A stretch of 64,000 bases of DNA. It comes from Methanobacteriota archaeon (GTDB lineage: Archaea > Thermoplasmatota > Poseidoniia > Poseidoniales > Thalassarchaeaceae). The DNA is taken from assembly GCA_018650285.1 (NCBI GenBank), contig JABIGF010000021.1, positions 1 to 64,000 of the forward strand. Direction: 5' to 3'. Under the pieces are notes generated by a model. It saw nothing but the letters and a program-made list of their open reading frames with translations. It was not told where the DNA came from and made no database searches. Below are positions 34,740 through 44,228 of this stretch, piece after piece (position 1 is the first letter of the stretch; each line of letters opens with the position of its first letter). The translations under genes were made by a program, and so were the position numbers.

Positions 34740-35642
34740 TCAGAGACCACTTACTACTGCCACTACACGCATTTTCCCGTCTAAATCATCTGAATGGCGT
34801 GCGCCTAGAATTACTTGTGCATCATCTGTTAATCCTCGCGTGAATGCCTCGGCAACTTGTTCCATCTGATATATTGACATCTGCCTTCCACCCTCTAGTT
34901 GTAGCAAACAACCGCTCGCCCCAATCACTTCCAAACTTGCAAGCGGTGCTGAAAGCGCCTTCAAAAAGAGGCCTTCTGGATCATTTGCATCTCCTTCTGC
35001 GACAATCATTGTTGCCGCACCCTTTCGTTGTACAACAGAACGGAGGTCCATTAAATCAAGATTGATTATCCCCACTTGTCCTAAAGTTAGAATGAGCCCT
35101 TGCACCAAATCTTCAACCCAAGATGGGCGAGTTCTCCAATCTACACCTCTTGACCTTGCCTGCCATGCTAATCTGTCAAGTGATAATTGAGCACATACAT
35201 CTGATGCATCCTCTAGTTTGTTGAATGCGGGAAGTGCGATTGCTCGCCTAGTGGGATGGTCTTCAAATGGCATACCAGCAATTGAAATCACAATGGCACC
35301 TTTACGAGATGCTTGTGCCGCTAATGCTGGAGCAGCTCCCGTGCCAACGCCACCACCCAGCCCAGTCAATAGAATCAACAATTCTACGGGTTCGAGAATT
35401 TTTTCCATGATTGCTGTTGATTTCAAATAATGGGATGAAGCCAATTCAGGCAAAGCAGCACAACCCTCTTCAGAAGATTCGCCAAGTGGGAGACAGTGGG
35501 CTTGGCGAGAATCTTCAAATGATGAATCATCAGAATCAATGAGTAACAAATCACACTCATCAGAACAACGAGAATGTGCCCTTTTCGCCCATATTGAGCC
35601 AAGGCCACCAACGCCTGCTATCAAGAGACTCCCGTCGTGCAC
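34740..35642 (-). CDS. Divergent FtsZ/tubulin-superfamily protein
   Basis: A 300-residue protein that reads as FtsZ throughout its length but is short at the C terminus. An N-terminal Rossmann strand and glycine loop (LLIAGVGGLGSIWAKRA) comes first. The tubulin signature follows at residues 96-102 as GGGVGTG where FtsZ has GGGTGTG. The T7 loop is intact (INLDLMDLRSVVQ, Asn194, Asp196, Asp199). The C-terminal domain (GLFLKALSAP, RGLTDDAQVILGARH) completes it. There is no C-terminal tail that could bind FtsA or SepF. Val in place of the signature Thr and the low overall similarity suggest a non-canonical cytoskeletal paralog. GTP binding looks plausible and hydrolysis possible. The start is a GTG. 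Confidence 0.82.
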   Translation of the reverse strand: MHDGSLLIAGVGGLGSIWAKRAHSRCSDECDLLLIDSDDSSFEDSRQAHCLPLGESSEEGCAALPELASSHYLKSTAIMEKILEPVELLILLTGLGGGVGTGAAPALAAQASRKGAIVISIAGMPFEDHPTRRAIALPAFNKLEDASDVCAQLSLDRLAWQARSRGVDWRTRPSWVEDLVQGLILTLGQVGIINLDLMDLRSVVQRKGAATMIVAEGDANDPEGLFLKALSAPLASLEVIGASGCLLQLEGGRQMSIYQMEQVAEAFTRGLTDDAQVILGARHSDDLDGKMRVVAVVSGL

Positions 35643-35755
35643 AACTTATGCGCTGAGCGGGCAAGGGATTGATGTTTCGCCACAAACAGTAGTTGAAAGC
35701 CGACTTGCAACATCTGTGTCCTATTGCCAAGTGTATTCGAAAAATGGAATATCGC

Positions 35756-36061
35756 TTAATCGTAAGATGCATATCTCTGGTAACGCCTTCTTTCATCACG
35801 AGCCCAGGCGTTATCCGGTTCAATTTCAAGAACTTTTGAATAATACTCTATTGCTTTCTCAAATTCGGAGAAATATTTCCCGTACAAATTACCGAGGTTG
35901 CTCAATACTGGAATGCATCCACCGTCATCATCAAGCATTGCCAATAGAATTTTTTCAGCACCGGTTAAATCGTGCATTTCCATCTTTGTTTCGGCATCAT
36001 CAAGAAGAGTGATTTGCTCATTAGTCAAATTGTAGATATTCTCCCATCTACCTCCACTCAT
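35756..36061 (-). CDS. Small TPR-repeat protein
   Basis: A 101-residue protein with tetratricopeptide-like helix pairs, most clearly in the block AIEYYSKVLEIEPDNAWARDE near the C terminus. An earlier copy lies in LTGAEKILLAMLDDDGGCIPVLSNLGNLY. TPRs mediate protein contacts. It lies upstream of the FtsZ-like gene on the same strand with about 113 bases between them. No partner can be named. Confidence 0.7.
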   Translation of the reverse strand: MSGGRWENIYNLTNEQITLLDDAETKMEMHDLTGAEKILLAMLDDDGGCIPVLSNLGNLYGKYFSEFEKAIEYYSKVLEIEPDNAWARDERRRYQRYASYD

Positions 36062-36250: not shown

Positions 36251-37078
36251 ATGGAGAGCAAAATCAACGACCTTCGTCTACCGCTGATTGTTCTGCTTTC
36301 AGCCCTTCTTTTGGCAAGCAGTACTATTGCCGAATCCAAAGGAATTACAGGAGACGTAGCCGAAGGAGATACAGACGTTGCAAAAAACGGTTGCACCTGC
36401 CATTCTGATTACAAAATCGCACCATCAGATACTGTAACACTCATTGTTGATGGGGTGCCATTTTCATGGGCTGAAGGCAACACTTACACATTTACAATTC
36501 AATTGATTGGCGGACCAGATATTGCTGGAGGCCACTCAAACAGTGGTGGTTTCTCAATGCGTGCATCAGCAGGAACGCTTAGCGCAGCAACCGGTTTTGA
36601 AGACCTTGTCAAAAACGACGGTTCAGAACAAACAATGACTCACACTGAAGATGGAGCCCAAGTTCCTGACCGCATTTGGCAAGTAACTTGGACGCCGCCC
36701 GCTACAGGAAATGGTGATGTGACATTTTGGGTCGCTGGAAATGCAGTTGATGGAAATGGGGCTGCAATGGCACCAGATTCCTACAACCGTCTTTCATTCC
36801 CTCTAACTGAAGGTGCTGACAACGGCAATACTCATGCATTCATCGCAGGAGATGGAAACATTCAGGCACCAGCCGCAGCAAGTGGACACATTGACCTGCA
36901 CAGCATGGGAGCAAAATTCCGAGCTCACTGGCTTGGGCTTCTTGGATTTGGAGCCGTTATTTCAGTCCTAATCTTCTGTGGATTCTTCCTCCGTTACGGT
37001 TTCAGCCACAACTACAGTGGCCGCACAAACCTCATTCGATTGAGAATTAAGAATCTTCGCCGAGGTGACCAATTATGA
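36251..37078 (+). CDS. Exported reeler-like protein with CxCH motif and membrane anchor, first gene of cytochrome b/Rieske operon
   Basis: A 275-residue protein with an N-terminal signal peptide (LPLIVLLSALLLASSTIA). Near residues 48-51 it carries NGCTCHS, a CxCH arrangement rather than the CxxCH of cytochrome c, as seen in reeler/choice-of-anchor-type domains. Asp/Ser/Gly-rich beta structure follows (GGHSNSGGFSMRASAGTLSA). A C-terminal transmembrane helix spans about 226-250, and a basic cytoplasmic end follows. Whether the CxCH binds heme or metal is not settled by sequence. Its position at the head of the operon suggests an extracytoplasmic subunit or ligand-binding part of the complex. 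It overlaps the next ORF by four bases. Confidence 0.75.
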   Translation: MESKINDLRLPLIVLLSALLLASSTIAESKGITGDVAEGDTDVAKNGCTCHSDYKIAPSDTVTLIVDGVPFSWAEGNTYTFTIQLIGGPDIAGGHSNSGGFSMRASAGTLSAATGFEDLVKNDGSEQTMTHTEDGAQVPDRIWQVTWTPPATGNGDVTFWVAGNAVDGNGAAMAPDSYNRLSFPLTEGADNGNTHAFIAGDGNIQAPAAASGHIDLHSMGAKFRAHWLGLLGFGAVISVLIFCGFFLRYGFSHNYSGRTNLIRLRIKNLRRGDQL

Positions 37079-37152
37079 GCGACCAACAACGACTTGACTG
37101 TTGGAAAGAAGCACTCACAACATATCTGAAAGAAAGAGGTGACAAGTCGTGA
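37075..37152 (+). CDS. 25-residue ORF coupled between two operon genes
   Basis: A 25-codon frame (MSDQQRLDCWKEALTTYLKE, then RGDKS) that overlaps the end of the preceding gene by an ATGA and the start of the following gene by a GTGA. Its ATG is preceded by GAGGTGA at 37062-37068 with a 6-base gap. The next gene's GTG has the same SD at 37136-37142 and the same 6-base gap. A short amphipathic helix is likely. It may be a real small subunit or a translational relay; no homolog is known to me. Confidence 0.6.
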   Translation: MSDQQRLDCWKEALTTYLKERGDKS

Positions 37153-37598
37153 ATCAAGATGTTGTTACACGAATGCTTCGTCAAGTCGCATCGGGTGAGG
37201 TAAGTATTGAAGATGCCCGTACCGCTCTTTCAGGTGTAGAGTTAGATGAAGAAACATACGAAGCGGCAATTGATCACGGAGTCTTCAACAAAGTAGAACC
37301 AGGCACAGTTGTCCGCGCCACGCTCTCACCAAGTGGTTCATCTGCGTTGGTTGTACTGATTTTCCTTTGGGGTGTTGGTTGGACACTTTACTGGGCTGGA
37401 GCAATGACATACGGCCTCTACAATGGCTGGCAACAACAGCAACTTTCCTACTATCTTGGGATGACCATGGTCACACTAATCATCATGGGCATTGTCTATC
37501 TCAAATGGGTATTACCCGATTTAGTTGTCGTCAAACATCGACGTGGCAAATTTGTCGGACCAAAGGACCCAGACAGTTGGCAACAATACGAGGTGTGA
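37149..37598 (+). CDS. Two-TM membrane protein of the cytochrome b/Rieske operon
   Basis: A 149-residue protein. The soluble N-terminal part (residues 1-60) contains helical segments (VTRMLRQVASGEVSIEDARTAL). Two transmembrane helices follow at about 64-90 and 100-121, then a basic end. It starts at a GTG with a strong GAGGTGA SD. It sits between the reeler-like protein and the Rieske protein, which implies a small accessory subunit of the same complex. No family is recognised. Confidence 0.75.
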   Translation: MNQDVVTRMLRQVASGEVSIEDARTALSGVELDEETYEAAIDHGVFNKVEPGTVVRATLSPSGSSALVVLIFLWGVGWTLYWAGAMTYGLYNGWQQQQLSYYLGMTMVTLIIMGIVYLKWVLPDLVVVKHRRGKFVGPKDPDSWQQYEV

Positions 37599-37601
37599 TT
37601 T

Positions 37602-38477
37602 ATGGCAAGAGAATTCCGTCTCCGCCCTTCACCAAATGCTGATGTATTTAGTAATGAAAGTGGCTACAGTCTTGACCGAAGGCGCTTCATGCGGTATTCA
37701 TTCAACTCAGCAGCAGGCCTTATCACAATGGCAAGCCTTGGTTCAATTGGATTTGCTTCACTATTAATGGGGACGAGAGATAGCGAAGGTGGCAGCAATG
37801 CAATCAGTTACTGGGTCCCAAAAGGGCAAGAAGATTCCGTGTGGTATGGTTCAAAACACCTAGAAGCCATGAAGAAAAGTGAGTTTGAAGGAGAAGCGGC
37901 AAAAAGTGCAACTAATATGTCTGGAGCACAGGGCGTGTGGGGTGGAATGCCAGTAACAGTTGTTTATGTCCCTCACGAAGAAAACAAGAATAGCGCCACA
38001 TCTACTGGAGCACCACGATTCCAATTCATGGACGGAGTTGACCAAACTGGAGCAATTATTGGTTACGGTGGCGAAATAGAAGAAGAAGAAAAATGGTCTG
38101 TCCTCAAGATACATGATAACATCGTTATCCTGATGTCTCGTTGCCCGCATTTGTGTTGCATCCCAGGGTGGCAACTTGTTGCAAATGATTTCACAGCGGA
38201 TAATTGGCTGCCTGGCGGACTAGATTCAGGCGGAAATAAACTATTCTGCATATGCCACTCAAGTCGTTTCGACCCAACAGTAATTGAGAAAAATACCAAT
38301 ATCAACAGAACAAACGGTGCGGCTTTCCAGTATTTTGGCATCAAAAGAACCGGTGGGCCAACACCTGTTGGAATTCCATTAATTCCATTCGTTGTAAACA
38401 ACGATGTGATGGAAGCAATTGATTTTGAGGCAGAAGGAGTGGTCGAAATTCTCGACTGGTACACATACTGCAGTTAA
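37602..38477 (+). CDS. Rieske iron-sulfur protein
   Basis: A 291-residue membrane-anchored Rieske subunit. A twin-arginine-like start (RRRFMRYSFNS) and hydrophobic segment (GLITMASLGSIGFASLL) suggest folded export by Tat. The [2Fe-2S] ligands are visible in CPHLCC (Cys181, His183) and CICHSSRFD (Cys216, His219), with Cys185 or Cys186 and Cys218 available for the usual disulfide. The stretch between the two motifs (about 30 residues) is longer than in many bc1 Rieske proteins. It is followed 14 bases later by the cytochrome b gene. Confidence 0.95.
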   Translation: MAREFRLRPSPNADVFSNESGYSLDRRRFMRYSFNSAAGLITMASLGSIGFASLLMGTRDSEGGSNAISYWVPKGQEDSVWYGSKHLEAMKKSEFEGEAAKSATNMSGAQGVWGGMPVTVVYVPHEENKNSATSTGAPRFQFMDGVDQTGAIIGYGGEIEEEEKWSVLKIHDNIVILMSRCPHLCCIPGWQLVANDFTADNWLPGGLDSGGNKLFCICHSSRFDPTVIEKNTNINRTNGAAFQYFGIKRTGGPTPVGIPLIPFVVNNDVMEAIDFEAEGVVEILDWYTYCS

Positions 38478-38491
38478 GGAGGAAAAAAGAA

Positions 38492-39358
38492 ATGTTACTA
38501 CAATTTTGGTTCCTATGGCTCTTCATTATTATCGTCACAGTATTAGTGGCACTAACGCTTCGAAAAGAAAACGAAGATATTCCTCGAAAAGAACTTCTTC
38601 GTGCAGTTGAATCGGTTGGAAAGATGGGGATTGCAGAAAAATTATTCCTTTGGACCTTCTCTTGGCTAGATACAAGATTCAGAGTCCAAGATTATTGGGC
38701 AATGAGCCGTGACGCGTATCAATCTGTCCACAGACAGATGCCACTCACTCACTCTGAGAAGTATAAACTCAGAATCATTTGGTATTGGTATCCCCTATAC
38801 TGCTTAGGTGGAATCTCATTCCTCGCATTCATTATCCTAGTCATTACAGGAACAATTCTTGGGATTTACTACGTGCCTGGCGGAGATGGCGACCCTACCC
38901 CTGCATACAGCAGCATGGAATTTATCATGACTCAATTGCCATTTGGCTACATTATGCGAAGTATACATCACTGGGCGACTCACTTCATGGTGGCGTCGGT
39001 TTTCCTACACATGTGCCGAGTATACTTCACAGGTGCATACCGCAACCCACGTGAGTTGAATTGGCTCATTGGAGTTGGACTAATGGCTTTGACAATCGTC
39101 ATGGGTTACTCAGGATACTTACTACCGTGGGATGCATTAGCATTTGGAGCTGCAACTATCGGAATTGCAATGGCCAAAGCAACACCACTGATAGGTGGCT
39201 GGGTTGCGACTCTAATGTTTGGAGGTACTTCACTTTCAGGTGCTGCAGTTACCCGCATGTATTTCCTACACGTATTCATCCTACCAGTTGTTGTAACCAC
39301 ACTCATCATAATTCACCTGTTCATCGTTTGGGTTCAAGGCATTGCGGAGCCACATTGA
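38492..39358 (+). CDS. Cytochrome b, N-terminal (b6-like) heme-binding part
   Basis: A 288-residue integral membrane protein of the cytochrome b6 type. The four heme ligands can be assigned: His159 and His173 (IHHWATHFMVASVFLHMCR), and His260 and His275 (FLHVFILPVVVTTLIIIHLF). RVYFTGAYRNPRELNW and GYSGYLLPWD match b6 strongly. An extra transmembrane helix precedes them (residues 4-22). The C-terminal half of cytochrome b, with the Qo PxWY motif, is encoded in the next gene. The SD GGAGGAAAA precedes ATG 38492. Confidence 0.95.
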   Translation: MLLQFWFLWLFIIIVTVLVALTLRKENEDIPRKELLRAVESVGKMGIAEKLFLWTFSWLDTRFRVQDYWAMSRDAYQSVHRQMPLTHSEKYKLRIIWYWYPLYCLGGISFLAFIILVITGTILGIYYVPGGDGDPTPAYSSMEFIMTQLPFGYIMRSIHHWATHFMVASVFLHMCRVYFTGAYRNPRELNWLIGVGLMALTIVMGYSGYLLPWDALAFGAATIGIAMAKATPLIGGWVATLMFGGTSLSGAAVTRMYFLHVFILPVVVTTLIIIHLFIVWVQGIAEPH

Positions 39359-39371
39359 GAGGTGAGTCAAA

Positions 39372-42272
39372 ATGGGAATGATAGATAATTTTGGCCGCAT
39401 CGCTGATGTGTATATGCGTGAAAAGGACAAGATGCAAGATACTGAAGAAGAACGTCGTCGAGTCTTCGTAGGACATCCTCTTTGGCCACATGAAGTATTG
39501 AGAGATACAATTGTTCTTGCCGCAATGATGGCAGTTCTATGTTTCTATTCTTGGTTAATCCCACCACCACTACACAGTGCCGCAGATCCTTTCGCACAAG
39601 CAGGGTTCGTTTTCCCTGACTGGTACGTACTTTTCTCATACGGATATCTTCGTTGGGGAGAATACCTTCCACAGTTTGATATCCCACTACCTCAAATCAT
39701 AGGTGATTTCTTCGGCAGCCCAGTCATCTCATGGAATGCTGGATGGTGGGGTGCGTTCCTCACTGGTTTCCCTGTTGGGATACTTGCACTACCTCCTTTC
39801 CTCGGTGGGCGTGCAAAACGTGGTGTTGAAGACCCATGGTTTGCTACTGCGGGAATGATATACCTCGCTCACGTTTGGTTTATCAGTGTCTTTTCAATAA
39901 ACATCTTCTTGCAGTTATACGGGAAAAATCGTGCTGACTTCTGCCAATTAAATTCACACGCAGGACTAAGTTGCGGCGTAAGAGAACCGTGGATTGCAGA
40001 CCTCTTTAATGCCATACCGTGGATATTAACTGGGATATTAATTTGGATTGTCATCTATTTTATTGCCAAGTCGTATCTAATCAAAGCTGCTGGCTCAAGA
40101 ATCAATCCAAAGGCGGGCCGTACCGTTGCTTTAGGTGCGCTTGTAATCGCCATACTTCTTTCAGCGGTTTCATGGCCCATATATGATAATGGATTCTGGG
40201 ATGTTGGTGGATTTGGTGCGATGGATGATGTTGACGATTTAGCAACTCTAAGAAACCAACCAGTTGACACACTAGTGATGATGGATGAAAGCCACCTTTG
40301 GGATAGTATGTCAGACAACTGCCTAACATATGGAGCGAGTTCAAATAGCCCATTATGGCAAAATTCCAAATTTGAATCTGGCGATTCTGCCCGTTCCGAA
40401 TTTTGTTTGCTACCCGCCATACATTGGATGAATTGGGGGATTTTCCAACCTGTTCAACCAATATTAATGGATTTCTCTGATGCAAATAATCACCAACAAA
40501 CTCAGACCACCGATGGCGCCATCACCGGCGGAGTAAATGGATTTACTGAAGTATTCAGTTTCGCAGGAGACTCAAGCCTTTCTAACAATTATTTGTTAAC
40601 AGTAGAAGATCTCGGTGTTGATGAATTATCATTGGACTTAGGTTGTACTTTCAGAACAAGCACACGAAATGCTGGCGACCATAGCATCGCAATAGATGTC
40701 GCAGATGTAAGTGGCGCTAATGTAGCAAGCCTAAGCGGTAACTTGGAAGAAGGTGTCACTTGCACCACAAAGACATTCACTGTAAACCCAGGGACCTACA
40801 CTGTATCCATATTGATGGACTCAGCCTTTGATACCGGTAACTCAACAGTACTAGTTAATGCCACCTCAGCCATCAAAGTTACTCAACCACTAATTCTCAA
40901 CCCAGATACCGGAATGGCTCTTGACAGAACAAACAGTACAGAACTTGCTCTCGCTGGCATCTCTACTGATGGACTCTCATCTCTAACAATAGACAACCCC
41001 ACCTTCCATAAAAATCCCAAAGCGCTTGACGCGAAGTTGACTTATTCGCTATTCATCCCACCTCTTGCCCTTGGTGCAATGATGTATATTCTACTACGTA
41101 GTATGGCCCGTGGATATGAATACGAGATGAACAAATGTTACGGTTGTGACCTATGTGACGATGCTTGCCCTGTACGACTATTCACTGGAGGAGATAAACT
41201 CAACATTATCTACAACACTTGGAACAATGAAGACAATGGTGTACCACTATTCGCTTGTTTAACCTGTGGCGCTTGCACCAACGCCTGCCCACAATTAGTC
41301 GACTATGATTCATATATTGACATTCGCCGAAACTTGGTTGTTGGTGGGCCACCAGCGGCAAATATCCCTCATACTGTATTGCAAGCAGTGTTAGCAGCAG
41401 AAGCTGATGAAGAAGCAAACGACGACTTCATTTCAGTTGCAGACTACCCTATCCCATCCAATATCGGATACTACCCAGGTTGTGTTGATTACCTAGACCA
41501 AGATATGGTCTTTAGTCACCTCAACAAAGGAGAAATGAATCTCGGTGAAACAACAACCGCTGCATTTACCCTGTTTGATGAAATGGGAATTGATGTATCC
41601 TACCTCGGACGTGACTTCCTCAAGTGCTGTGGACATGACCAGAAGTGGCAAGGTATGGATAATGTGTTTGACAAGTTAAAATCCCACAACAAAGAGAAGT
41701 TAGAAGCAAGTGGAATAGACACTTTAGTCAGCAGTTGTGCAGAATGTTTCCACACCTTTGCTAAAGATTACGGCCTAGAAGGTATCAAAGTGATGCACAC
41801 TACAGAATTTTTGGCAGAACAAGGATTTGATGTTGACTTGACAACCAGTTGTCCAAAGACTGTCACATTCCATGACCCATGTCGCCTTGGTCGGCAAATG
41901 AATGTCTATGATGAACCGCGTGAACTGATTGAAAATGTCTCAGGCGTAACTATGGTTGAGATGGAGCATCACCACGAAGACGCATTGTGTTGTGGTGTCT
42001 CTAGTATGATGTCTTGTAACGAAGAGAGCAGAACTATCAGAGTTGAACGCTTTGAAGAAGTCAAGGCGACTGGTGCTGATATGATGATCACATCGTGTCC
42101 AAAATGTGTCGCCCACTTTGAGTGTCTCAAGTTTGAAGGAGACCCCAGTTACGACTTCGAAATCACTGATATTGTATCCTTCCTAGCAAAGCAAATTGAG
42201 GAGAAAAAGACTCTCGGTTCAGGTGCAACAGAAATAATCAACAACACCTCTACAGATGAAGCAACTGCTTAA
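39372..42272 (+). CDS. Cytochrome b C-terminal domain fused to HdrD-like iron-sulfur module
   Basis: A 966-residue fusion. Residues about 30-275 are the C-terminal, subunit IV-like part of cytochrome b, with the Qo motif PDWY at 82-85 and several transmembrane helices. Residues about 280-550 form an Asp/Ser/Asn-rich extracytoplasmic beta region. A helix at about 555-575 (FIPPLALGAMMYILLR) returns the chain to the cytoplasm. Residues about 585-950 look like HdrD/GlpC: two 4Fe-4S motifs (CYGCDLCDDACP near 589, CLTCGACTNACP near 628) and two CCG domains, with CCG near 752 and 873 and SCAEC/SCPKC partners. This joins a quinone-site subunit to a disulfide- or dehydrogenase-type iron-sulfur module. 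It starts behind GAGGTGAG. Confidence 0.9.
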   Translation: MGMIDNFGRIADVYMREKDKMQDTEEERRRVFVGHPLWPHEVLRDTIVLAAMMAVLCFYSWLIPPPLHSAADPFAQAGFVFPDWYVLFSYGYLRWGEYLPQFDIPLPQIIGDFFGSPVISWNAGWWGAFLTGFPVGILALPPFLGGRAKRGVEDPWFATAGMIYLAHVWFISVFSINIFLQLYGKNRADFCQLNSHAGLSCGVREPWIADLFNAIPWILTGILIWIVIYFIAKSYLIKAAGSRINPKAGRTVALGALVIAILLSAVSWPIYDNGFWDVGGFGAMDDVDDLATLRNQPVDTLVMMDESHLWDSMSDNCLTYGASSNSPLWQNSKFESGDSARSEFCLLPAIHWMNWGIFQPVQPILMDFSDANNHQQTQTTDGAITGGVNGFTEVFSFAGDSSLSNNYLLTVEDLGVDELSLDLGCTFRTSTRNAGDHSIAIDVADVSGANVASLSGNLEEGVTCTTKTFTVNPGTYTVSILMDSAFDTGNSTVLVNATSAIKVTQPLILNPDTGMALDRTNSTELALAGISTDGLSSLTIDNPTFHKNPKALDAKLTYSLFIPPLALGAMMYILLRSMARGYEYEMNKCYGCDLCDDACPVRLFTGGDKLNIIYNTWNNEDNGVPLFACLTCGACTNACPQLVDYDSYIDIRRNLVVGGPPAANIPHTVLQAVLAAEADEEANDDFISVADYPIPSNIGYYPGCVDYLDQDMVFSHLNKGEMNLGETTTAAFTLFDEMGIDVSYLGRDFLKCCGHDQKWQGMDNVFDKLKSHNKEKLEASGIDTLVSSCAECFHTFAKDYGLEGIKVMHTTEFLAEQGFDVDLTTSCPKTVTFHDPCRLGRQMNVYDEPRELIENVSGVTMVEMEHHHEDALCCGVSSMMSCNEESRTIRVERFEEVKATGADMMITSCPKCVAHFECLKFEGDPSYDFEITDIVSFLAKQIEEKKTLGSGATEIINNTSTDEATA

Positions 42273-42310
42273 GCAACTCTTGAAAGGGAAAAGCCCGAAG
42301 GGTGCAATAG

Positions 42311-42643
42311 ATGAGTCGACTTGACGAAGTGCAAAAACGCCGCCAACTTGAAGCGGAACGCATTGAGAAAAGCATGGCAAAAATGGCTGAAGAAAAAGCG
42401 GAAAGCGTTGGCGAAGGAGAATTATTCGTAGCCTTCGTTGATATTGACAATTGCATTGGTTGCGATCAATGTATGATTGTCTGTGATGACAAAGCCATAG
42501 AACTCTATGACTTGCCACTAAGGACAACTGGCTTAGAAAGCGAAGTAAACAAGAAAGCGAGAATATTACGCGAGCAATGTACTGGATGCCGCCTGTGTGC
42601 TTTAGCTTGCCCGACCAATGCAATAACAATGATTGATAGGTGA
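42311..42643 (+). CDS. 4Fe-4S ferredoxin domain protein of the cytochrome b operon
   Basis: A 110-residue protein with a helical Glu/Lys-rich N terminus (about 1-40) and two cluster motifs: CIGCDQCMIVCDDKAIELYD and CTGCRLCALACPTNAIT. In the first motif the last cysteine is followed by Asp rather than the usual Pro. A link between the soluble electron pool and the HdrD-like module encoded just upstream is a reasonable reading. The gene follows the fusion gene by 38 bases and precedes a small membrane protein. Confidence 0.88.
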   Translation: MSRLDEVQKRRQLEAERIEKSMAKMAEEKAESVGEGELFVAFVDIDNCIGCDQCMIVCDDKAIELYDLPLRTTGLESEVNKKARILREQCTGCRLCALACPTNAITMIDR

Positions 42644-42647
42644 GGAA

Positions 42648-42956
42648 ATGAGTGAAAAAACGGATGAGGAAGAGCCTGTGCGCTTTGGCTCAGAGTTTGG
42701 ACCATACCGGTCTAGCCATAGTTCTGGTGTGACTTTATCAACTTTCAAAACCCTAGTTTGGCTATCGAATTTAGGTGGCCTATTGTTAGTAGTCATCGCC
42801 CTTGAAATGATGATTGTACAACAACGATTTTACTGGGGATTAGCAGCCTTAATCGCAGGTGTCATCGTAGCATTATTCCCATCAAATTACGAAATTGTCG
42901 GAATGGGAAAAAAGAATGAAGCCGCGGAAAATGATGATTCTCAAAATAGTGACTAA
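42648..42956 (+). CDS. Small two-TM protein at the end of the cytochrome b operon
   Basis: A 102-residue protein with an acidic N terminus, two hydrophobic helices (SNLGGLLLVVIALEMMIVQQ and GLAALIAGVIVALFP) and an acidic, Asn-rich end. ATG 42648 follows GGTGAGGAA; an upstream in-frame TTG overlaps the ferredoxin gene. Its last position in the operon suggests a small membrane subunit. No family is recognised. Confidence 0.6.
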   Translation: MSEKTDEEEPVRFGSEFGPYRSSHSSGVTLSTFKTLVWLSNLGGLLLVVIALEMMIVQQRFYWGLAALIAGVIVALFPSNYEIVGMGKKNEAAENDDSQNSD

Positions 42957-42977: not shown

Positions 42978-44228
42978 CTAATCAATCAGAGATACGACAG
43001 ATGAAGTGAGTTCTGCAAGTTCTGAACCCATTGCTAGCATTGCCAACTCAGCAACTAAAGCGTGCCAGTTATCAACACGCTCCAAAATTAAATCACCACC
43101 CTCCATGGTAGAAATATCATCGGGCTGCAAAAATTTTGTAGAAGGCGTATTCAAATTTTCCATCATTCCTTTTTTTGAATTTGCTCTATAAAATGTAGCG
43201 CAACTTTTCCCCCCTACACCATAAGCACACGGTTCAATCACGTAATCTCCAAGTTTGAGGAAAGTAGGAACTCCTTCTTGTATTAGGAAATCAATAGCAT
43301 CAGCTCCACCTTTACCATAGGTGAGTTTGTTTAATTTACGATTTGAGAGGTTTAACAATTCATCACCACTACGTATTTCGAGTATCCCTAAACCATAGGT
43401 GCCAGAATCATTCTTGACAAAAAGTGTAGGCTCTCCTTGAATCCCATATTCGTCATATTTACTCTGTAAATAAACAAGGCAATCATCTACTTGCGCTGCT
43501 AACTTGATGAGACAAGACTCTTTTTCCAAACATTTTTCCTCGCTAACAAACCAATGTGTTCCAAGCAACCAAGGGTCAATATCAAGAATTTTTGCCGCCT
43601 TATCAATAAAAGGTTGAACGTGTCTAAAGTGACTCGATTTTCGTCGCTGATACCATCCCATTTCTTGAGGTGGAGCAATTTCAATATCGCCGACACCTTG
43701 GAGTGGACTATGGCTCAAATCATTGTTTAGAATAATCATGTCCGGAGTTTCCCCATCAATTATCACTTCACCATCTGCTGAAACTTCACTAAGTGACAAG
43801 GTTCCTGAAAGCCCCTCAACTTCAGATAATCCAGTTAATTCTGGTGAACCTACTGTAACCTTCCTGCCGTTAATAGAAAATAATTTTTTTATTGTTATGA
43901 GATTCTCTACATATCCCTTATTCCTCGTATGACTCTCTGGCCAAATATGTAACCATTCTACTTCTGGATGTTCGTTGAGAAGCAAATTGGAGAGCGATTC
44001 AGATAGGACGTGGCGGTCGGAATCTCCTACATTGTTGAACCCTGCAGGGAAGGCATTGGCATCTACTGCTGCAACTTTCCAACCAGCATCTCTAATGTCA
44101 ACTGAAGCATAGAGAGGCATCGGTTGTTTCGCTCTCTCAATAGCAAAAAATTCTGTTAATTCTTCACGCTTTTCTTCCAATTTGGTAGTTAAATCGCTAA
44201 GAATTGGTGGACCTTGATATTCACTCAA
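42978..44228 (-). CDS. gshA: Glutamate-cysteine ligase, GshA (Acidithiobacillus-type)
   Basis: A 416-residue enzyme that resembles the GshA family named from Acidithiobacillus (TIGR02049/PF08886-like), which makes gamma-glutamylcysteine. Marker segments are ASVDIRDAGWKVAAVDANAF, PAGFNNVG, QEMGWYQRRKSSHF and KNDSGTYGLGI, close to the family's characteristic order. No glutathione synthetase gene is adjacent, so gamma-glutamylcysteine may be the end product. It shares orientation with asnB, whose stop is 9 bases upstream. Confidence in the family is high, and that in the end product low. Confidence 0.85.
   Translation of the reverse strand: MSEYQGPPILSDLTTKLEEKREELTEFFAIERAKQPMPLYASVDIRDAGWKVAAVDANAFPAGFNNVGDSDRHVLSESLSNLLLNEHPEVEWLHIWPESHTRNKGYVENLITIKKLFSINGRKVTVGSPELTGLSEVEGLSGTLSLSEVSADGEVIIDGETPDMIILNNDLSHSPLQGVGDIEIAPPQEMGWYQRRKSSHFRHVQPFIDKAAKILDIDPWLLGTHWFVSEEKCLEKESCLIKLAAQVDDCLVYLQSKYDEYGIQGEPTLFVKNDSGTYGLGILEIRSGDELLNLSNRKLNKLTYGKGGADAIDFLIQEGVPTFLKLGDYVIEPCAYGVGGKSCATFYRANSKKGMMENLNTPSTKFLQPDDISTMEGGDLILERVDNWHALVAELAMLAMGSELAELTSSVVSLID

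Follow-up and report, generated by a model that had tools for sequence, protein, structure and literature searches.

Several known systems couple a protein with CCG domains to a membrane b cytochrome, among them HdrDE, DsrMK, TmcBC and HmcEF. In EtfD, the ETF:menaquinone oxidoreductase, the Fer4 and CCG domains form an electron wire to quinone (PMC13083937). The complex III of Marine Group II (MGII) has been described, in the available part of PMC6336850, as cytochrome b and Rieske protein without the canonical complex and as specific to MGII; an Hdr module is not mentioned in that part. Here we analyse an operon at positions 36251-42956 of a 64,000-nucleotide stretch (the window), the start of contig JABIGF010000021.1 (our C10) of a member of the Thalassarchaeaceae (order Poseidoniales), whose draft genome of 2.1 Mb consists of 28 contigs and is 88.6% complete. 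In this operon half of a cytochrome b is joined to an Hdr-related module and a ferredoxin gene lies next to it, which suggests a second electron entry into the respiratory chain.

The seven open reading frames in the window's list stand at the positions, and have the content, reported in an earlier sequence-only reading of this DNA. They encode, in order, a CxCH protein, a DUF7318 protein, a Rieske protein, a b6-type cytochrome b, the fusion, a 2[4Fe-4S] ferredoxin and a small membrane protein (families assigned by Pfam and NCBIfam scans; Table 1). The fusion is a single chain of 966 residues that holds, as that reading had it, the PDWY half of cytochrome b, an extracytoplasmic insertion, a pair of 4Fe-4S motifs and two CCG domains.

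The cytochrome b-iron-sulfur fusion is genuine and conserved. In GTDB genomes a scan for relatives returned 134 stretches that encode one, and 80 of these loci were fetched; the match spans both the petD-like and the iron-sulfur part in all 80, some of which end at a contig edge. The nearest relatives are Poseidoniales (Thalassarchaeaceae) genomes. At least five fused loci (L045, L054, L055, L068 and L074) come from single-cell genomes, so a chimeric bin does not explain the fusion there. Among 293 Thermoplasmatota genomes, most of those in both families of the order carry the fusion at full length and most others in the order carry it in fragments, so that the search proposed with the sequence-only reading finds both parts in one chain across both families. 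The five genes from the CxCH protein to the fusion keep their order in 64/64 loci that hold all of them, and a ferredoxin gene follows closely on the same strand in 73 of the 74 loci with enough downstream sequence (72 loci plus L078, where the match of the ferredoxin begins within the end of that of the fusion; only L083 departs). An assembly join of two unrelated genes might be suspected in a draft of this completeness. We rejected it, as a negligible possibility, given the 80 loci with their single-cell genomes and the presence of the fusion in almost all genomes sampled from the order; the same loci dispose of the concern that homologs might never carry both parts together.

The sequence shows that the quinol-oxidising core is complete. 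Cytochrome b aligns to b6 across residues 102-287, and its haem ligands H159/H173/H260/H275, the same four histidines assigned in the sequence-only reading, are invariant in the alignment of relatives and have the 14/15 spacing of b6. Its C104, invariant in 12 Poseidoniales, aligns with the cysteine of the b6 motif YC(L/I)GG, Cys35, the residue that carries haem c_n on the n-side in b6f; the haem c_n-binding cysteine of b6f is thus kept. The membrane half of the window's fusion chain does not reach the petD Pfam model, and it is identified as petD because relatives do match PF00032, namely the fused ones of G026 and G035 and the unfused one of G001. The Rieske protein scores 33 bits against TIGR01416, for which the cut-off is 97, yet the cysteines and histidines of both its boxes are invariant. 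The operon therefore has four haem histidines in two helices, a subunit-IV half with P(D/E)WY and a Rieske protein. Six transmembrane helices are predicted in the fusion, and charge bias places the loop 271-555 outside, the iron-sulfur module in the cytoplasm and the cubane motifs beside the membrane. Together with the Rieske protein, the PDWY motif and the haem histidines, this topology bears out the earlier proposal that a cytoplasmic iron-sulfur module belongs to a cytochrome b/Rieske complex linked to quinone.

No cytochrome f or c1 with CxxCH is encoded in the operon, which has the CxCH choice-of-anchor V protein instead, and we therefore assign the complex neither to b6f nor to bc1. The CxCH of this protein is invariant in 10 aligned relatives, and the protein is a candidate p-side subunit of the complex. 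As a separate observation, an invariant CxCH (not CxxCH) in genomes that encode CcmF/CcmC-family proteins (40/40 in the order) is possibly an unusual c-haem attachment site.

The module has the two five-cysteine CCG motifs and two cubane motifs of HdrBC and HdrD. Across 48 chains, 17 of its 18 cluster cysteines do not vary (all eight in the cubane motifs and nine of the ten in the CCG domains), and C753 is present in 47 and replaced by Ser in one. In the module tree all cytochrome-b-linked modules form one clade (support 100/99) nested in a group with MvhD-HdrCB proteins (100/99), and EtfD-like and LutA-like proteins, including the genome's own, lie outside that group (100/99); the grouping was the same when the long G035 branch was left out. 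The signatures of the module (CCGHDxxW, C(A/P)EC, CCGVSxxM and CPKC) agree with its placement apart from EtfD, since the genome's EtfD-like protein has CSG and CPHC. The LutA/GlcF-type signatures CCGSxxxR, CAGC and CCGGGGG are absent from the module, which falls outside that type in the tree too. By these patterns the module is HdrC-HdrB-like and not a generic HdrD, GlpC or EtfD. The sequence-only reading was thus right to relate it to Hdr, but its label of HdrD/GlpC-like should give way to HdrC-HdrB-like, grouped with MvhD-HdrCB and apart from the genome's EtfD-like and LutA-type proteins. MvhD/FlpD was found in 0/40 genomes of the order, and an MvhD partner within Poseidoniales was rejected for that reason; the operon has no HdrA gene, although no search aimed at HdrA was made in the genomes of the order.

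The grouping with HdrCB bears on a thiol/disulfide role, which we regard as the strongest rival explanation. The CCG sites, as in HdrB, would oxidise a dithiol or reduce a disulfide and exchange electrons with quinone via the cubanes and haems, and the ferredoxin would be an accessory or a second input. Both five-cysteine CCG motifs are retained in nearly all Poseidoniales, the best NCBIfam match of the module is the thiol:fumarate reductase TfrB (DsrK, TmcB and HmcF match the fusion weakly), and a glutamate-cysteine ligase gene (GshA) adjoins the operon. However, GshA is on the opposite strand and was seen in only 32 loci, and we set it aside as a thiol link. Moreover, L012 and the g21 class-mates have Ser in place of the second CCG1 cysteine, as EtfD has Thr, and this should abolish one catalytic cluster (PMC13083937). 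Noncubane clusters that cleave disulfides are also expected to be oxygen-sensitive, whereas the hosts are aerobes. A thiol/disulfide enzyme is therefore rather unlikely, although it deserves serious consideration.

For the whole chain AlphaFold2 (AF2) gave a weak model (predicted local distance difference test, pLDDT, 62), and the top fold matches of a model of residues 575-946 alone (pLDDT 67, below 50 in the cubane part) are M. smegmatis EtfD, LutA and methanogen HdrB, with a TM score to target of up to 0.67 for HdrB. M. smegmatis EtfD is the closest solved structure by both sequence and fold. After this match we initially preferred input from ETF, in which ETF or another flavin dehydrogenase would dock on the CCG domains, as with mycobacterial EtfD or LutA, and feed quinone via the complex. 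EtfAB is encoded in the genome, no Fer4 domain of ETF:quinone oxidoreductase (ETF-QO) was found there, and in G035/G041 an HdrA-MvhD flavoprotein adjoins the fusion. Nevertheless, EtfAB lies on another contig than the operon, and the Poseidoniales operon has no flavoprotein gene. The genome also encodes a separate EtfD-like protein of 668 residues (G000:C24, L089:8579-10582, minus strand) with a membrane domain, two Fer4 and two CCG domains and the EtfD-type CSG/CPHC motifs, which is probably the archaeon's ETF:quinone oxidoreductase. In EtfD, Thr539 and His583 convert the CCG sites into a linear [3Fe-4S] cluster and a fully ligated cluster (PMC13083937); the fusion has Cys753 (Ser in L012 and the g21 class-mates) and an invariant Glu791 at these positions. 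With the separate EtfD-like protein and the tree both disfavouring it, docking of ETF on the fusion seems unlikely.

A search for cytochrome b across the phylum Thermoplasmatota gave eight genomes outside the class (G001, G013, G022, G031, G047, G063, G077 and G214) in which both cytochrome b and subunit IV have relatives. Most of them also have genes for DUF7318 and the Rieske protein, and several have the anchor-V protein; neither the module nor a homologue of the operon ferredoxin was found in these eight loci. The unfused subunit IV typically ends like GYEFNLNRTYYKVR, and in fused forms the same stretch continues directly into the first cubane motif, GYEYEMNKCYGCDLC. The unfused protein thus stops exactly at the fusion point, and the arm joins right after the last transmembrane helix. 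A gene whose product, a small membrane protein, bears weak similarity to that of the last gene here lies 3' of subunit IV in G001 and close to the operon in G214, and module and ferredoxin therefore look like a cassette inserted between old neighbours. The sequence-only reading had placed the module where the usual bc1 partner would be. Since the Rieske protein, PDWY and b-haem ligands are kept and a module-free operon exists elsewhere, we consider the module an addition and not a replacement. In two loci near unfused operons (L175:9338-9856 and L178:4602-5072), a small membrane protein continues in the same chain into a glutaredoxin-like domain with CxxC.

In f3, a class-mate family that is probably Marine Group III, subunit IV carries the cubane pair and the CCG pair is a separate gene; this split lineage keeps the ferredoxin, with an extra ferredoxin or flavodoxin domain, and G003 has the same order with an apparent frameshift. 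The outside insertion 271-555 is absent from the split form as well as from G026 and G035/G041 and is specific to Poseidoniales. In G035/G041 (lineage f25) the gene after the fusion encodes an HdrA-like protein with an MvhD (FlpD) domain, and this gene, at L125:5435-6379 and L143:757-2289, ties a flavin site to a bc-type complex. The cysteine at the haem c_n position is present in Poseidoniales, G026, G035, G041 and G003 and is Ser, Ala or Thr in 7/8 unfused forms; the departures are Ser in the g21 class-mates and Cys in the unfused G063, and for the most part the cysteine accompanies the module. In the cytochrome b tree seven unfused forms make up one clade (100/99), which is compatible with a single origin of the fusion but does not prove it.

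Our favoured explanation, the likeliest of those considered though short of probable, is an aerobic complex III of the Rieske/cytochrome b type in which the subunit-IV half bears an n-side HdrC-HdrB arm served by the co-encoded ferredoxin, and which would act as a ferredoxin:quinone reductase too. Architecture and cassette can be read from the sequences, and we infer donor, direction and electron path as follows. Ferredoxin reduced by 2-oxoacid:ferredoxin oxidoreductases would donate to the Hdr arm on the cytoplasmic side, and electrons would pass from the arm through the membrane-proximal cubane clusters to haem c_n and haem b_n and on to quinone at the n-side site. Quinol would be oxidised at the PDWY site, with one electron going to the Rieske protein, halocyanin and oxidase and the other returning via the b haems. 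A single complex would thus serve as complex III and also reduce quinone with ferredoxin, much as has been proposed for b6f in cyclic electron flow. Halocyanin, which is highly transcribed in Thalassarchaeaceae (PMC9723583), is the likely acceptor of the Rieske protein.

Gene content across the order fits this ferredoxin-fed complex. POR_N (2-oxoacid:ferredoxin oxidoreductase) occurs in 59/60 genomes, NuoD in 38/40 and NuoF in 6/60, and these counts, with that for Ccm proteins, indicate that ferredoxin is made nearly everywhere, that NADH input to complex I is mostly missing and that attachment of haem c is feasible. The constant gene order with its adjacent ferredoxin, the eight backbone-only relatives that lack both module and ferredoxin, and the retention of the ferredoxin (with an extra domain) in the split lineage likewise favour it, as do the link between the haem c_n cysteine and the module, the absence of MvhD, the availability of a separate EtfD-like protein for ETF electrons, and a module whose fold resembles EtfD and HdrB and whose clusters the topology places in the cytoplasm. 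An orphan RnfB is reported as acceptor of ferredoxin electrons in MGII (PMC6336850); the operon ferredoxin matches the rnfB model below the cut-off and may be this protein.

Several points weigh against the ferredoxin-fed complex. Its main weakness is that a plain wire has no need of a pair of conserved CCG sites remote from the membrane. Ferredoxin docking and inward electron flow are assumed in this model, and complex I lacking NuoF could already oxidise ferredoxin while saving more energy. In g21, a split lineage, the haem c_n cysteine is missing, no ferredoxin gene was found in the sequenced neighbourhood in G026, and the source genome is among the six with a NuoF-type protein.

Alternatively, the same parts could run in reverse: quinol would be oxidised at PDWY, and its low-potential electron, aided by membrane potential, would leave by way of haem b_n/c_n and the Hdr arm and reduce ferredoxin for biosynthesis. 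The large uphill span from quinol to ferredoxin counts against such use, as does the POR that already makes ferredoxin in nearly all genomes; proteorhodopsin-bearing relatives could provide the membrane potential (PMC9723583). We consider reverse use improbable. Also doubtful is a reversible ferredoxin/Q-cycle machine that would connect the pools of ferredoxin and quinone with the Rieske/halocyanin branch; amino-acid-derived ferredoxin electrons would enter it in the dark, and the membrane potential from proteorhodopsin in the light could re-reduce ferredoxin via the Hdr arm. The entry point to the respiratory chain that the sequence-only reading had suggested remains an inference, one that the evidence favours.

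Table 1. Features of the operon, in coordinates of the window
Feature	Position	Strand	Evidence
Exported choice-of-anchor V protein, CxCH, one C-terminal transmembrane helix	36251..37078	+	NF041895 E 1.2e-22
DUF7318 protein with two transmembrane helices	37149..37598	+	PF24002 E 5.2e-6; kept in operon
Rieske protein, boxes CPHLCC and CICHSS	37602..38477	+	TIGR01416 E 4.9e-8
Cytochrome b N-half, b6-like	38492..39358	+	PF00033 (Cytochrome_B) E 4.5e-41; b6 alignment
Cys104 codon, haem c_n cysteine position of cytochrome b6	38801..38803	+	Aligned to YC(L/I)GG of b6
966-residue fusion: subunit-IV (petD) half of cytochrome b and HdrC-HdrB-like module	39372..42272	+	Fer4, two CCG
PDWY motif, quinol-oxidation site, residues 82-85	39615..39626	+	Invariant in 48 chains
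Extracytoplasmic insertion, residues 271-555, beta domain ~390-503	40182..41036	+	Hydropathy, charge, AF2 secondary structure
HdrC-like part, Cys 589-639 in two cubane [4Fe-4S] motifs	41136..41288	+	Fer4_9 E 1.6e-8; 8 Cys invariant
CCG domain 1, Cys 704, 752, 753, 789, 792, invariant Glu791	41481..41747	+	PF02754
CCG domain 2, Cys 837, 873, 874, 909, 912	41862..42119	+	PF02754, 69 bits
2[4Fe-4S] ferredoxin	42311..42643	+	Fer4_21 E 3.1e-13
Small membrane protein, last gene of operon	42633..42956	+	No Pfam/NCBIfam family; conserved 3' of ferredoxin

The GshA-type glutamate-cysteine ligase gene (PF08886) that adjoins the operon lies at 42978-44228 on the minus strand and has a homologue in 32 compared loci. 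Upstream, at 34740-36061 on the minus strand, are genes for an FtsZ-like protein and a TPR protein, conserved neighbours in 64 and 66 compared loci. Some loci have a glycosyltransferase-like gene on the opposite strand between the ferredoxin and the membrane protein, which we judged unrelated. Elsewhere in the genome, the NuoF-type (Complex1_51K) protein is encoded at G000:C20:103143-103625; proteins of this type are ~530-660 residues long and occur in 5/59 other genomes of the order. At G000:C13 (L090:6785-9599, minus strand) the gene for a 650-residue ferredoxin-flavodoxin-SdhB-like (Fer2_3) fusion adjoins that for an HdrB/SdhE-like CCG protein, and the two may form an unusual complex II; the flavodoxin domain of the fusion resembles the one joined to the operon ferredoxin in L124.

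The statement of the sequence-only reading that no standard complex has this fusion agrees with our searches. No entry in the PDB that combines a Rieske/cytochrome b complex with an Hdr module was matched by sequence or fold, and no such complex is described in the papers that we found, those on MGII and Thermoplasmatota included, the subscription literature being outside the search. A review of methanotrophic archaea with suggestive terms (PMC5244752) does not describe the fusion. Marine Group II is described as the surface ocean's most abundant planktonic archaea and has no cultured member. In a bc-type complex, usually fed by quinol only, a cytoplasmic iron-sulfur arm would add an entry point and, if the input from ferredoxin is true, would help explain the fate of ferredoxin electrons where complex I is mostly without its NADH module.

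Compared with known systems, the locus shares with b6f and b6-type complexes (1q90, 7r0w) a split cytochrome b, the 14/15 spacing, the haem c_n-position cysteine, a Rieske protein and P(D/E)WY, but it lacks a gene for cytochrome f or c1, has the CxCH protein, the HdrCB arm and the ferredoxin, and bears extra transmembrane helices and an outside domain on subunit IV. With HdrABC (MvhD-HdrCB group; 5odc, 8rwn) it shares the two cubane and two five-cysteine CCG motifs, the sequence group and the CCG fold; unlike there, the module is covalently joined to cytochrome b, with neither MvhD in the order nor HdrA in the operon. In EtfD (9ojn, PMC13083937), too, two Fer4 and two CCG domains are joined to a membrane b cytochrome, but its haem domain is its own, with five transmembrane helices (NarI-like), and it has no Rieske protein or Q-cycle site, whereas the membrane part of the fusion is subunit-IV-like and Cys753/Glu791 replace Thr539/His583. 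The cytochromes of HdrDE, DsrMK, TmcBC and HmcEF are likewise of the NarI type, without Rieske protein or P(D/E)WY site. The unfused Thermoplasmatota operon has the same cytochrome b family and backbone but no Hdr module or operon ferredoxin and mostly no haem c_n cysteine, so that the same operon with and without the arm offers a natural comparison for the old question of the role of haem c_n. The fusion operon is a set of known modules in an undescribed combination.

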